DNA from: Bernardetiaceae bacterium
GTDB taxonomy: Bacteria > Bacteroidota > Bacteroidia > Cytophagales > Thermoflexibacteraceae
Reading direction: 5' to 3'
NCBI GenBank assembly: GCA_025057115.1
Contig: JANWWZ010000013.1
Span: forward strand, 1 to 64,000
Length of the DNA stretch: 64,000 bases
Positions 29,798 through 62,440 of this stretch are shown here, in pieces. Below the pieces are notes generated by a model that was not told the origin of the DNA, ran no database searches, and worked only from the letters and a program-made list of their open reading frames with translations. Positions within the stretch are counted from its first letter, which is position 1; every line of letters starts with the position of its first letter. The position numbers and the translations under genes are program-made.

Positions 29798-30535
29798 TTA
29801 CTTTTGGCAGTAGCAATACTTGAATGAGTTACCAGCAGCCATACAGCGGCAGAAAGCTAATAAGCCAGCTTGCCCACGTTCTTGATACCATTGTTTTACT
29901 TCATGGCGTGCCGTAAGGTAATTTAGATAGGTGTGATGTGGATTACTAAAAAACTCTCTATTAGTGGAGAGAGATTGTAGGTCAGGGGCGTATGTGCCGT
30001 TATGTGTTAAAATGTGCCATTCTTCTTCTGCATGAGGAAAACGGTAGTCTACTAACATGGCAAGCCCTTCATCAAACCAGGCAGGGAGTTGAAAAGTGCG
30101 GCTACACCATCCGATGCGCTCAAGTAGCTCAGCGTGGCAAAGTTCGTGGGCAAGTACATCGGAGTTAATTCCTTCAGGCTCTAAAACAATGTATGCTCCT
30201 GTAATAGCTAAGTGCGTCAATCCTGTGCGGGCATTGGGTGCGCCAAAGTAGCGGATGGTTTCTATGTTGTGTCCAGCGATGATAACAGGCTTGGCTTGTT
30301 GGGTACCAAAAAACTGCTCAACGCGCTTCTGAGCAGTTGTTAGACAAGTAAGTAAGCAGTCTTGCAAAACTGTGGGCATTTGAGGAGTTACATATATTCT
30401 TGGCGCAATTTGCTTCATCTTTTGACTGTCGACGTTCAAGCATCGGAAGTATTCTGGACGAATAATAGCGTATATACCCAGCGCTACTATCAGCACTAGA
30501 AGGAATAGCAAACTTATTTGCAGTAGCCACTTCAA
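29798..30535 (-). CDS. Membrane-anchored gluzincin metalloprotease
   Basis: A 245-residue protein with an N-terminal membrane anchor (residues 5-26) and an extracytoplasmic domain. The zinc motif HELCH is at 130-134 and the Glu ligand in AWFDEGLAML at 156; both lie in the arrangement of gluzincins (peptidase MA-like). The start is TTG, and its TTGA overlaps the TGA of waaA, so the two are translationally coupled. Several cysteines occur in the exported part, including a CYC near the C-terminus. Substrate unknown. Confidence 0.75.
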   Translation of the reverse strand: MKWLLQISLLFLLVLIVALGIYAIIRPEYFRCLNVDSQKMKQIAPRIYVTPQMPTVLQDCLLTCLTTAQKRVEQFFGTQQAKPVIIAGHNIETIRYFGAPNARTGLTHLAITGAYIVLEPEGINSDVLAHELCHAELLERIGWCSRTFQLPAWFDEGLAMLVDYRFPHAEEEWHILTHNGTYAPDLQSLSTNREFFSNPHHTYLNYLTARHEVKQWYQERGQAGLLAFCRCMAAGNSFKYCYCQK

Positions 30536-31797
30536 TGCTGCTTGAAGTCTAGATATTTGCTAATGCTTGTCAGTATCTTTTTAGTAGCTCCTTTATTGCG
30601 TTGTATGTAAGCAGAACATGCCTCGGAGGCGTGTTGCCATGCTTGTTTATGGGTCAATAGTTGTTTGACAATCTGGGTAAATTCACCTGGGCGAGCTATG
30701 ATGAAAGCCCCTCCTTTTGCTAATAATTCCACCGCTTCTGGAAATTGACTGTAATTCCGATTGCCAAACACTACAGGAACTCCGAAAGCAGCAGGCTCTA
30801 AAATGTTGTGCAATCCATTGCCGAAAGCCCCTCCTACGTAAGCCAAGTTGCCGTAAATGTACAAACGATTTAGCATGCCAATATTGTCAATCAGTAAGCA
30901 TCGGGCACCATACAAATTCTCATCAAGATGACTTGTTACCTGAGAATAACGAAGCGTTTTGAACAATTTACAATCTTGCTCAATTCTTTGAAGCAGTTTC
31001 TCGCTAATTTCATGAGGCGCAATAATAAACTTGCACCATCCTAATAGTTGTTTTACGTCCTGCTGAATAATGTGCCAGTCCTCTGACCAAAGGCTTCCAA
31101 TAACAATGGTATTGTTTCCATAAGCAAAATGAGCGGCGATGCTCACAGGGGCGGCAGTTTCTGCAATATATGCTACTCTATCTATGCGCGTATCCCCTGA
31201 AACATGTACCTGGCGCACGCCGATGCCAGCTAAAAGATGTCGCGAAGATTCATTTTGTACATGTATCTCGCGAAAATAATGCAGCATTTGCCTGTAGAAA
31301 CCTCCATAAGGCTTAAAAAATAACTGCTGACGACGAAAAACAGCCGAAAATAATATCACGGGTATATTTCGTCGGTGGAGTTCCCTAAGATAATAATACC
31401 AAAACTCGTATCTGACAAAAAAAACAATGGCAGGTTTGACGAGAGCAACAATTCTCTGTGCTTGCTTAGGGGAATCTAAAGGAAGATAAAGTACCCAGTT
31501 GGCATGTTCGTAGCGCTGGTGCAACTGATAGCCACTAGGGGAGAAAAACGTTAGCAGGACTTTGTATTTAGGATAGCGTTGGCGAAATTGTTCTATTAGA
31601 GTTCTACCTTGTTCAAACTCTCCTACCGAAGCGCAGTGAAACCAAGCAATAGGAGAATCCTCATGCGCGAAAAGGTTTTCCCAGCGTGGGGCTTGTTCTC
31701 GGCGCCCTGCAAGAAAAGCAGCCGCTTTAGCATTAAATAAAGCAGCGATGCGCAAGCCTATTCGATAAAGCAATAAAAACAGATTGTATAGCAACAA
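30532..31797 (-). CDS. waaA: 3-deoxy-D-manno-octulosonic acid (KDO) transferase
   Basis: WaaA/KdtA transfers KDO from CMP-KDO to lipid A precursor at the inner membrane. The 421 residues have an N-terminal membrane-associated segment, the catalytic region FHCASVGEFEQGRTLIE, LLTFFSPSGYQ and LYLPLDSPKQAQRIV. The C-terminal GT-B half has VIGSLWSEDW, APHEISEKLLQRIE, YVGGAFGNGLHNILEPAAFGVPVVFG. It shows that the organism makes KDO, relevant to the KdsC-like gene at 61.7 kb. It overlaps the gluzincin gene downstream and is divergent from DUF1573. Confidence 0.94.
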   Translation of the reverse strand: MLLYNLFLLLYRIGLRIAALFNAKAAAFLAGRREQAPRWENLFAHEDSPIAWFHCASVGEFEQGRTLIEQFRQRYPKYKVLLTFFSPSGYQLHQRYEHANWVLYLPLDSPKQAQRIVALVKPAIVFFVRYEFWYYYLRELHRRNIPVILFSAVFRRQQLFFKPYGGFYRQMLHYFREIHVQNESSRHLLAGIGVRQVHVSGDTRIDRVAYIAETAAPVSIAAHFAYGNNTIVIGSLWSEDWHIIQQDVKQLLGWCKFIIAPHEISEKLLQRIEQDCKLFKTLRYSQVTSHLDENLYGARCLLIDNIGMLNRLYIYGNLAYVGGAFGNGLHNILEPAAFGVPVVFGNRNYSQFPEAVELLAKGGAFIIARPGEFTQIVKQLLTHKQAWQHASEACSAYIQRNKGATKKILTSISKYLDFKQH

Positions 31798-59405: not shown

Positions 59406-60194
59406 GTGAGAAAGGTTGTTTACAATGGGCTCAATGGCATTGGCAAGGCAGGGCGAGTCGGAAATGTGTTTCTAATCTTACTCATTTGTGCAAATGCTGT
59501 AGTAATTGTATTAGAGTCCGAGCCAGCACTTAAAGAAACTTATGGCAATTTTTTTCACTACTTTGACTTGTGTTCAGTAGCCTTATTTTCCGCAGAGTAC
59601 CTCTTGCGCCTTTGGACTGTGGTAGAAAATCCCACCTATCGCCATCCCTTTTTTGGTAGGGTGCGCTACTTGGTTACTCCCATAGCAATCATAGATTTGC
59701 TTGCTGTATTGCCTTTCTACCTGCACCTGACCAATTTGTTCGACTTGCGCATATTGCGCATTTTGAGGGTATTAAGTATTTTCCGACTTTTTAAGATTAT
59801 GCGCTATATGAGGGCTTTAAGCCTAATTACCAAAGTGCTAAGGGAACGCAAAGAAGGGTTAATCATTTCCACCATTTTGATGTTTTTCATGCTTTTGATT
59901 ACCTCCGCTTTGATGTATTACGTAGAACATCAAGTCCAACCCGAAAAGTTTTCTAGCATTCTTCGCACCATGTGGTGGGGTATTATAACTTTAACTACTG
60001 TTGGGTATGGAGACATGTACCCCATCACAGGCTTAGGCAAATTACTAGGAGGACTGATTGCCGTCATTGGTGTAGGGCTTTTTGCCTTGCCAGCGGGTCT
60101 GATAGCCTCAGGCTTTTCAGAAGAGCTTAGCAAAGTTGCTGATAGGAAAAAAATCACATGCCCTCATTGTGGCAAAGAAATTATAATTGAATAA
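59406..60194 (+). CDS. Voltage-gated potassium channel
   Basis: A 262-residue six-transmembrane channel subunit. S1-S3 occupy roughly residues 20-105; an arginine-patterned S4 (LRILRILRVLSIFRLFKIMRYMR) covers about 114-136; and the selectivity filter TTVGYGD is at 197-203, before the inner helix. The start is GTG; no better ATG fits. After the last helix comes a short cytoplasmic tail ending in CPHCGKEIIIE, a single CxxC pair. The protein should conduct K+ across the inner membrane as a tetramer. Confidence 0.93.
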   Translation: MRKVVYNGLNGIGKAGRVGNVFLILLICANAVVIVLESEPALKETYGNFFHYFDLCSVALFSAEYLLRLWTVVENPTYRHPFFGRVRYLVTPIAIIDLLAVLPFYLHLTNLFDLRILRILRVLSIFRLFKIMRYMRALSLITKVLRERKEGLIISTILMFFMLLITSALMYYVEHQVQPEKFSSILRTMWWGIITLTTVGYGDMYPITGLGKLLGGLIAVIGVGLFALPAGLIASGFSEELSKVADRKKITCPHCGKEIIIE

Positions 60195-60691: not shown

Positions 60692-61705
60692 ATGGAACTT
60701 TATTTAGATTCTGTTGATTTTCGGGAGATTGAACAAGCAATGAAACTGGGCTTCGTAGCTGGACTGACTACCACGCCCACCTTTATGCATCGCGAAGGTA
60801 TTACCGATATTGACGGTACCATTTTGAAACTCTCGCGCATGGTGCCTATTCTTCAGGTGGAAGCTCTTGGAGAAACGGCAGATGCTATTTGTGCAGAAGC
60901 TAAACGCCTGCTGTCATTGGGTTTAGATCCTCAAAAAACGGTTTTCAAAATTCCCGTTTCTCTTGAGGGCGTGACTGCTTGCAAACGTCTCACAACTGAA
61001 GGGATTAGAGTCAATATTCATTTAGTGTATACCCTACAGCAGGCTTACATGGCAATGGCTGCTGGGGCTACTTACATTTGTCCTCTCGTAGGGCGGCTTC
61101 AGGATCAAGGTCATGACGCGCTAGCGCTCATAGAGCAGTGCGTAAAAGCTGTTAATTATTATGGCTATAGCTCTAAGATTATGTTTTCCTCTGTTCGGCA
61201 CGCCGAGCATGTGCGCAATGCCATCAACTTAGGCGTTCATGCTTGTACTGTGCCGTGGAAGGTGATGAAGGCACTTACAGAAAACAACTTCACTACCTTA
61301 GGAACGCAACAATTTATAGAACATACCAAACTTATTACCTTGCGGGTAAAAGATATCATGAACGGAGAAAATCCAATAGTGCAAGCCCATCAAACGGTAA
61401 TGGAAGCATTAGTAGTGATGACAAAAGCAGGATTTGGCGCAGTTACGGTAGTGAATGAGGATGGCACGGTAAAAGGAGTGTTCACTGATGGCGATTTGCG
61501 TCGCACTCTAGAGCGCGGCGAGGATATTTTGCACAAAAAAATGAGCGAACTTTCCTATAAACAACCCATCACCATTGCCCCGCAAGCTCTTTTATTCGAA
61601 GCAGCCGAAATGTTTAAAAAAACACAAGTGGACACTATTGTAGTGGCTGACAACAACCGACCTTTAGGAATGATTGACGTGCAAGATATTGTAAAACTGA
61701 GCTAA
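60692..61705 (+). CDS. Transaldolase-fold protein fused to a CBS domain pair
   Basis: A 337-residue fusion. Residues 1-215 are a small transaldolase/fructose-6-phosphate-aldolase-like barrel: MELYLDSVDFREIEQAM, GLTTTPTFM, the Schiff-base lysine Lys86 in VFKIPVS, and GATYICPLVGRLQDQGHD. Residues 219-337 are two CBS motifs. The first contains GVFTDGDLRR (262-271), and the layout closely follows the CBS pair of KdsD/KpsF arabinose-5-phosphate isomerases, where it follows an SIS domain. Barrel-plus-CBS is unusual. The next gene, 21 bases on, is KdsC-like, so a role in ulosonic-acid or pentose-phosphate metabolism is inferred. Confidence 0.85.
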   Translation: MELYLDSVDFREIEQAMKLGFVAGLTTTPTFMHREGITDIDGTILKLSRMVPILQVEALGETADAICAEAKRLLSLGLDPQKTVFKIPVSLEGVTACKRLTTEGIRVNIHLVYTLQQAYMAMAAGATYICPLVGRLQDQGHDALALIEQCVKAVNYYGYSSKIMFSSVRHAEHVRNAINLGVHACTVPWKVMKALTENNFTTLGTQQFIEHTKLITLRVKDIMNGENPIVQAHQTVMEALVVMTKAGFGAVTVVNEDGTVKGVFTDGDLRRTLERGEDILHKKMSELSYKQPITIAPQALLFEAAEMFKKTQVDTIVVADNNRPLGMIDVQDIVKLS

Positions 61706-61726
61706 CCCCGTATCGGTTTATGATGC

Positions 61727-62440
61727 ATGTTGCTTGAAGAAGTAGTTAAGTTGTTCGAAGCACTTGGAGGAGAGTTTTTCACTTGTCCCCAAGTGATACA
61801 AAGCCGTATTACTCAGCTCAAGGCCGTCATTTTTGATTGGGATGGCGTATTTAACAGCGGCACAAAGAGCAAGGAAATCGGCAGTTCCTTTGCAGAGCCC
61901 GATGCAGCAGGCACTAACTATCTTCGGTTAGGTTTATGGCTGCTTACTGGCGTTATGCCTAAAGTATTTATCATCACGGGTGAATACAATCTTTCGGCTT
62001 TTCAGTTAGCTCAACGCGAGCATTTTAATGGAGTTTGTTTTCGCTTTACTGAAAAAATGAAGGCATTGGAATGGCTTTCTCACTGCGAAAGCATCGCTCC
62101 TCAGACAACAGCTTTTGTCTTTGACGATGTGCTAGATCTGGCAATAGCCTCTACGTGTGTCTTGCGAATCATGGTAAGGCGAAGAGCTAGTCCATTGCTT
62201 GCTGCTTATGTAAAGCAAAACCATCTTGCTGATTACATAACTGGTTGCATGGGAGGAGAGCATGCTGTGCGGGAAACCTGTGAGTTAATTTTGGGACTCG
62301 GCAACTGCTATGAAAAAGTGCTCTACCACCGAATCAACTATTCAGAGCAATATCAACAGTTTTTAAGCGCCAAAAAATCCATCGTGCCGCGCTTTTTTAC
62401 TTGGCAGTGCGACAAAGTACAAGAAGTATTCCCCACCTAG
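61727..62440 (+). CDS. HAD phosphatase, KdsC-like
   Basis: A 237-residue HAD hydrolase. Motif I is AVIFDWDGVFNSG (Asp37, Asp39), motif II FIITGE (Thr84), motif III a Lys near 110, and motif IV VFDDVLDLAIA (Asp133, Asp134). The C-terminal HAVRETCELILGLG matches the conserved end of KdsC (KDO-8-phosphate phosphatase) and related NeuA-linked phosphatases. It is larger than KdsC (~170-190) because of an N-terminal ~30 residues and a C-terminal extension. Probably co-transcribed with the transaldolase-CBS gene. Its stop overlaps that of tatC (convergent) by 4 bases. Confidence 0.82.
   Translation: MLLEEVVKLFEALGGEFFTCPQVIQSRITQLKAVIFDWDGVFNSGTKSKEIGSSFAEPDAAGTNYLRLGLWLLTGVMPKVFIITGEYNLSAFQLAQREHFNGVCFRFTEKMKALEWLSHCESIAPQTTAFVFDDVLDLAIASTCVLRIMVRRRASPLLAAYVKQNHLADYITGCMGGEHAVRETCELILGLGNCYEKVLYHRINYSEQYQQFLSAKKSIVPRFFTWQCDKVQEVFPT

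Follow-up and report, generated by a model that had tools for sequence, protein, structure and literature searches.

A transaldolase-family barrel joined to a KdsD-type CBS pair, a candidate source of arabinose-5-phosphate for Kdo synthesis in Bacteroidota

The fusion gene and its neighbours

The window analysed here, a stretch of 64,000 nucleotides from a Bernardetiaceae bacterium, carries near its end a gene whose product joins a transaldolase/fructose-6-phosphate aldolase (FSA) barrel to a pair of CBS domains, followed 21 bases downstream by the gene of a HAD-type phosphatase. The features considered below, with positions given in the window, are as follows:

30532..31797, minus strand: predicted waaA, Kdo transferase (PF04413, 8.4e-43; NCBIfam WaaA models in the 1e-40 range, below cut-off)
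60692..61705, plus strand: gene of the FSA-CBS fusion (337 aa), proposed to form arabinose-5-phosphate in place of KdsD (domain profiles, full-length conservation)
60692..61333, plus strand: transaldolase/FSA barrel domain, aa 1-214
60773..60775, plus strand: codon of Thr28, a position held by Asn in transaldolases and FSA (alignment)
60947..60949, plus strand: codon of Lys86, the Schiff-base lysine
61019..61021, plus strand: codon of His110, a position held by Thr in transaldolases and FSA (alignment)
61334..61696, plus strand: KdsD-type CBS pair, aa 215-335
61727..62440, plus strand: divergent KdsC-like HAD phosphatase, 237 aa

The initial annotation had described a transaldolase-type barrel attached to the CBS pair of KdsD, with its catalytic lysine kept, and profile and structure searches agree with this description. 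The barrel matches Pfam TAL_FSA over aa 3-202 (PF00923, 1.1e-34; 120.6 bits against a cut-off of 27), two CBS domains lie C-terminal to it (Pfam, 2.6e-20), and a Pfam search of the protein for a SIS domain gave no match. The CBS pair is nearest to KdsD and KpsF, with 77 and 76 bits to the respective NCBIfam models against 44 for the next non-KdsD CBS family, the alignment of TIGR00393 being limited to model positions 153-267; among solved structures, its top matches are the arabinose-5-phosphate isomerases 4o9k (65.7 bits), 3k2v (59.1) and 3fna (57.7), and the next CBS chain scores 35.4 bits. The protein misses the NCBIfam FSA equivalog cut-off (TIGR00875; 152.8 against 245.95 bits). Its AlphaFold model (mean pLDDT 88.8, pTM 0.63) is matched by TalC-type transaldolases (1vpx, Z 28.9, rmsd 1.8 over 210 residues) and by FsaA (Z 27.1), in alignments that took in barrel residues 1-218, the CBS part being judged by sequence. 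The fusion is no chance join: relatives from many genera keep it at full length with 58-87% identity.

The active site was compared with those of FsaA, three TalC-type structures and the TalC paralogue of the same genome. Lys86 aligns to FsaA Lys85, and the fusions keep Asp6, Arg135 and Ser167 along with it, as well as the transaldolase residues Glu57 and Asn108. Four positions are changed, in FsaA numbering Asn28 to Thr, Thr109 to His, Ala/Ser129 to Cys and Tyr/Phe131 to Leu. Across 47 fusion homologues, Thr28, His110 and Leu132 are invariant, as are Lys86 and Asp6, and position 130 is nearly always Cys (Thr in L080); the Asn and Thr that mark the FSA/TalC functional family at FsaA positions 28 and 109 are absent from all 47. 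By comparison with established transaldolase structures, we place the changed residues (Thr28, His110, Cys130 and Leu132) in the wall of the donor pocket and at the site that holds the catalytic water. On our reading, they would adapt the donor site to two carbons instead of three, with the phosphate-binding residues for the acceptor left in place.

The neighbouring HAD protein was expected to resemble KdsC, and a weak but real similarity is found (NF007019, 1.6e-11, below cut-off; 3n07, 6.5e-9). The HAD motifs FDWDGVF, IITG, K110 and FDDVLD are conserved, and the AlphaFold model of the protein finds its best structural matches in KdsC/YrbI (e.g. 3nrj, 4.2e-12). Since it falls below both curated KdsC cut-offs (44.2 against 208 bits and 27.6 against 106.95 bits), the protein is classed as divergent KdsC-like and not as KdsC; compared with KdsC (YrbI), it shares the fold, the motifs and the company of kdsA, but is longer (about 235 aa against 160-190), with 24-27% identity in structural alignment.

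The predicted waaA, present as had been noted, shows that Kdo is used in this organism, and is not linked to the fusion here. Upstream of the fusion, 59406-60194 encodes a voltage-gated type ion channel (Ion_trans) whose tail may be a zinc ribbon (weak matches); nothing suggests that it belongs to the Kdo gene set.

Gene order and distribution across genomes

In the source genome, a kdsA over the curated cut-off was found on contig C5, a different contig from that of the fusion, and a search of the same genome for a SIS-CBS KdsD, the check that the initial annotation had called for, found none; a search for free SIS isomerases returned only GlmS, a 339-aa PGI/PMI-like protein and a MurQ-like protein, all named from their sequences. 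A scan of named genomes gave at least 546 contig stretches encoding relatives of the fusion, 80 of which, matching the query nearly end to end, were kept as loci. The fusion is directly preceded by kdsA in 54 of these 80 and directly followed by the HAD gene in 60, so that the linkage of fusion and HAD gene first seen in the window recurs widely, and the gaps are mostly below 105 bases on the kdsA side and below 200 on the HAD side. The gene orders include kdsA-fusion-HAD, kdnA-kdnB-kdsA-fusion-HAD-kdsB and waaA-kdsB-kdsA-fusion-HAD. The last of these, on contigs labelled Desulfobacteraceae or Deltaproteobacteria (metagenome bins, in which the gene order is more certain than the host names), is an almost complete Kdo operon in which the fusion occupies the expected place of kdsD.

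Upstream of kdsA, about one in three of the loci (L063-L142; e.g. L073 4852-7132) carries homologues of kdnA and kdnB, recognized by their similarity to the solved enzymes (2.6e-126 and 6.3e-127). Other loci have small genes inserted between kdsA and the fusion, either a toxin-antitoxin-like pair made up of an 85-aa partner and a PIN-domain protein (PF13470; L084 7309-7976, L091, L105, L124 4866-5533, L134, L135 and L139) or a 23S-rRNA-intervening-sequence protein (PF05635; L106 7516-7884, also L095, L107 and L110).

The distribution of the fusion is complementary to that of KdsD. Among 59 relatives, the fusion is present in 25 genomes and a full-length KdsD in 25, with no overlap. A larger sample at the level of the order (242 genomes, with at least 90% completeness requested) holds the fusion in 62, a SIS-CBS KdsD in 149 and kdsA in 210, and the 210 kdsA-bearing genomes divide into 60 with the fusion only, 146 with KdsD only, two with both and two with neither. 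Thus 208 of the 210 have one gene or the other, and only one genome of the sample has either without kdsA. The exclusion within kdsA-bearing genomes gives a Fisher p of 1.6e-47 when shared ancestry is ignored and p = 0.008 with one pair per family, a partial correction for ancestry; both states occur within eight families and at least two genera (g46 and g206), in which fusion genomes and KdsD genomes stand side by side, the g206 fusion genome G443 carrying its fusion within a kdsA-fusion-HAD-kdsB cassette. In a phylum-wide sample, the fusion was found in 5 of 296 genomes.

The four exceptional genomes can be described individually. The two with both genes (G363 and G373) also have two kdsA genes each, one in a kdsA-fusion-HAD cassette and a second that shares its stretch with kdsD. 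Both genomes with neither gene can be explained. In one (G391), kdsA is of the fusion-linked type and lies 151 bases from a contig end, so that a neighbouring fusion could have been lost in assembly. In the other (G498), a KdsD-type SIS gene without CBS domains, which narrowly misses the threshold applied (TIGR00393, 2e-53), forms a single cluster with kdsA and a KdsC-like gene (L158 1007-2911), a third arrangement of the Kdo pathway.

A natural exchange of the two genes is seen around KdsA itself. Fusion-linked KdsA forms a long-branch clade of its own (branch 1.62, SH-aLRT 100) and still passes the KdsA equivalog cut-off. The genomes of genus g34 have KdsD and lack the fusion, and their KdsA nests inside the fusion-linked clade, where it groups (SH-aLRT 99) with a genus of the same family that bears the fusion; in G039, a member of g34, a kdnA-kdnB-kdsA-HAD-kdsB cassette stands without the fusion, and KdsD is encoded elsewhere in the genome. 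That the same KdsA lineage works with either gene argues that the fusion and KdsD deliver the same compound, arabinose-5-phosphate (A5P). In KdsA encoded at fusion loci (such as L067 7131-7976, of Thermonema rossianum, and L150 5933-6805), KH replaces the KK of the NVKKGQF motif, and THSLQ-PN is exchanged for THSIRKYGIP. Genome G484 (L163, L170) has, beside its fusion-clade KdsA, another KdsA that is very divergent, with a branch length of 2.1 and a score of 281 bits that falls short of the cut-off.

The HAD gene follows a different pattern. It replaces canonical KdsC in most fusion genomes, a KdsC over the cut-off being missing from nearly all of them, with G021 and G028 as exceptions; fusion genome G037 encodes a near-canonical KdsC (102 bits) in the absence of the HAD gene, and KdsD genomes G031 and G046 have the HAD gene and lack canonical KdsC. 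As it is present in KdsD genomes G031, G039 and G046 and absent from fusion genome G037, a part in the A5P step was ruled out for the HAD protein. This refines the earlier proposal: the gene, KdsC-like as noted there, is best read as the probable KdsC of this lineage, independent of the A5P step.

The proposed reaction and its alternatives

Taken together, these patterns suggest that the fusion very probably supplies the A5P for Kdo biosynthesis in this lineage, as a non-orthologous stand-in for KdsD. Its product is most likely that of KdsD, given the exclusion between the two genes, the kdsA-fusion-HAD cassettes and a genus in which the cassette lacks the fusion and KdsD is present. The initial annotation had envisaged a route to a pentose- or ulosonic-acid phosphate with an aldolase in place of the isomerase. 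This proposal is supported, and of the findings that it had named as able to refute it, two were looked for and not borne out: fusion and HAD gene are commonly linked, and the CBS pair clearly aligns better to KdsD than to unrelated CBS proteins. The pentose phosphate, most likely A5P, is retained, and a remodelled ulosonate is set aside.

How A5P would be made is less firmly indicated, and we lean, by a modest degree, towards aldol addition of glycolaldehyde to D-glyceraldehyde-3-phosphate. The only disconnection by which an aldolase can make A5P is between C2 of glycolaldehyde and C1 of glyceraldehyde-3-phosphate, and the stereochemistry of the new centre is the same as in fructose-6-phosphate. 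In vitro, E. coli FsaA and FsaB reportedly favour glycolaldehyde as the donor and glyceraldehyde-3-phosphate as the acceptor, with A5P as the product (PMC6298115), and an engineered pathway uses FsaA as an 'A5P aldolase' (PMC9947464). That a transaldolase can hold A5P covalently is seen in the crystal structure 3upb. We infer that this chemistry carries over to the fusion, but it counts against the inference that four active-site positions differ from those of enzymes of known activity. With its architecture, conserved residues, gene linkage and exclusion with KdsD observed, the substrate, product, direction and regulation that we infer for the enzyme would be these: Lys86 would form an imine/enamine with glycolaldehyde, the enamine would attack D-glyceraldehyde-3-phosphate held by Arg135, Ser167 and Arg169, and the product D-arabinose-5-phosphate would pass to KdsA. 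A donor pocket of Thr28, His110, Cys130 and Leu132 would suit the two-carbon donor better than dihydroxyacetone, feedback from the pathway would act through the CBS pair as in KdsD, and the HAD neighbour would take the phosphate off Kdo-8-phosphate.

The separation of kdsA and fusion on different contigs of the source genome counts against the proposal. The weak point of the aldol route is its glycolaldehyde supply, as the fusion has no linked gene for making this compound. A search of the space between kdsA and the fusion met only the PIN-domain protein with its small partner or the 23S-rRNA-intervening-sequence protein, and the Fe-dependent dehydrogenase next to kdsA was rejected as a candidate on being recognized as KdnB, of Kdo8N synthesis. 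Two alternatives would keep A5P as the product and dispense with free glycolaldehyde. Ribose-5-phosphate, the C2 epimer of A5P, might be bound as an imine on Lys86, deprotonated at C2 and reprotonated on the other face (His110/Glu57) to release A5P, or the same result might be reached by retro-aldol cleavage and re-addition with glycolaldehyde staying bound. The new invariant His, placed where transaldolases have a Thr that helps to hold the catalytic water, and the transaldolase crystal structure 3upb, with covalently bound A5P, are in keeping with such an epimerase, but no family member of this activity is known, and the invariance of Asp6, which serves C-C bond chemistry in transaldolases, argues mildly for retained C-C chemistry; we regard epimerisation as unlikely. 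Two-carbon transfer from a donor aldose to glyceraldehyde-3-phosphate, a C2 analogue of the transaldolase reaction, would likewise follow the logic of the family, but on stereochemical grounds its donors would need a C2/C3 configuration found in uncommon metabolites such as threose-4-phosphate and altrose-6-phosphate, which makes this course very improbable. Isomerisation of ribulose-5-phosphate through a Schiff base was ruled out on chemical grounds, as it would run into amino-sugar dead ends.

Other readings would take the fusion out of A5P supply. It could have the usual activity of a transaldolase or fructose-6-phosphate aldolase, brought under CBS regulation and merely co-transcribed with Kdo genes, as the shared fold and catalytic lysine would allow; against this stand the separate, normal TalC encoded by the source genome and by nearly all fusion-bearing relatives, the changes at normally constant active-site residues and the shortfall at the FSA equivalog cut-off, and the exclusion with KdsD would be left unexplained, so that little probability remains for it. 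Synthesis of a different ulosonic acid by the cassette, with another aldose phosphate passing from the fusion to a divergent KdsA, would account for the long branch and the clade-specific residues of fusion-linked KdsA. This is the most doubtful reading, and highly improbable, in view of the score of these KdsA proteins over the equivalog cut-off, the company that the same KdsA type keeps with KdsD in genus g34 and the presence of kdsB, waaA and the Kdo-specific kdnA/kdnB in the same operons.

Relation to known systems and biological meaning

With KdsD/KpsF/GutQ, the fusion shares a homologous C-terminal CBS pair, the same phyletic slot, in that kdsA needs either gene, and the same proposed product, but it carries an unrelated class-I aldolase barrel for catalysis instead of SIS, and its proposed substrates are glycolaldehyde and glyceraldehyde-3-phosphate (or ribose-5-phosphate) where KdsD takes ribulose-5-phosphate. 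FsaA/FsaB and the TalC-type enzymes have the same fold, catalytic lysine, Asp6 and phosphate-site residues; the fusion differs from them in the added CBS pair, the neighbourhood of Kdo genes and the Thr/His/Cys/Leu set at positions 28/109/129/131, and FsaA has no assigned role in Kdo synthesis. The loci with kdnA and kdnB upstream of kdsA resemble the Kdo8N operon of Shewanella, in which KdnB starts Kdo8N synthesis (PMC5125639), but add the fusion and the HAD gene and lie mostly in Bacteroidota; the position of kdnA/kdnB directly upstream of kdsA in many of these bacteria suggests, as a separate observation, that amino-Kdo is widespread in the phylum. The synthetic A5P-dependent assimilation of glycolaldehyde relies on the same proposed reaction, performed there by FsaA (PMC9947464), but is engineered and run catabolically, whereas the fusion would be natural and biosynthetic.

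A literature search, which reached few subscription papers, found no report of an FSA-CBS fusion or of a natural A5P aldolase. What appears to be new is the non-orthologous replacement of a committed Kdo enzyme and, possibly, a new natural enzyme activity. Evenly balanced, in our estimation, is the broader proposal that a pentose phosphate is naturally made de novo, in that glycolaldehyde and glyceraldehyde-3-phosphate would give A5P, hundreds of Bacteroidota and some Desulfobacterota would make their Kdo without ribulose-5-phosphate, glycolaldehyde would be a genuine biosynthetic precursor and Kdo feedback would act through a captured CBS pair.

Judged from their genomes, many Bacteroidota appear to make A5P, the building block of Kdo, itself an essential sugar of the outer membrane, with an aldolase mounted on the regulatory tail of the isomerase in place of the isomerase itself. 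If true, this would fill a pathway hole in these genomes and give a natural role to a reaction that FsaA performs in the laboratory, and it would raise the question of the cellular source of glycolaldehyde, or of the existence of a Schiff-base epimerase. It would also bear on metabolic models and on claims about drug targets in the Kdo pathway. The poor affinity of FsaA for glycolaldehyde has been named as a limit in assimilation engineering (PMC9947464), and an A5P aldolase evolved for the job would serve that purpose.
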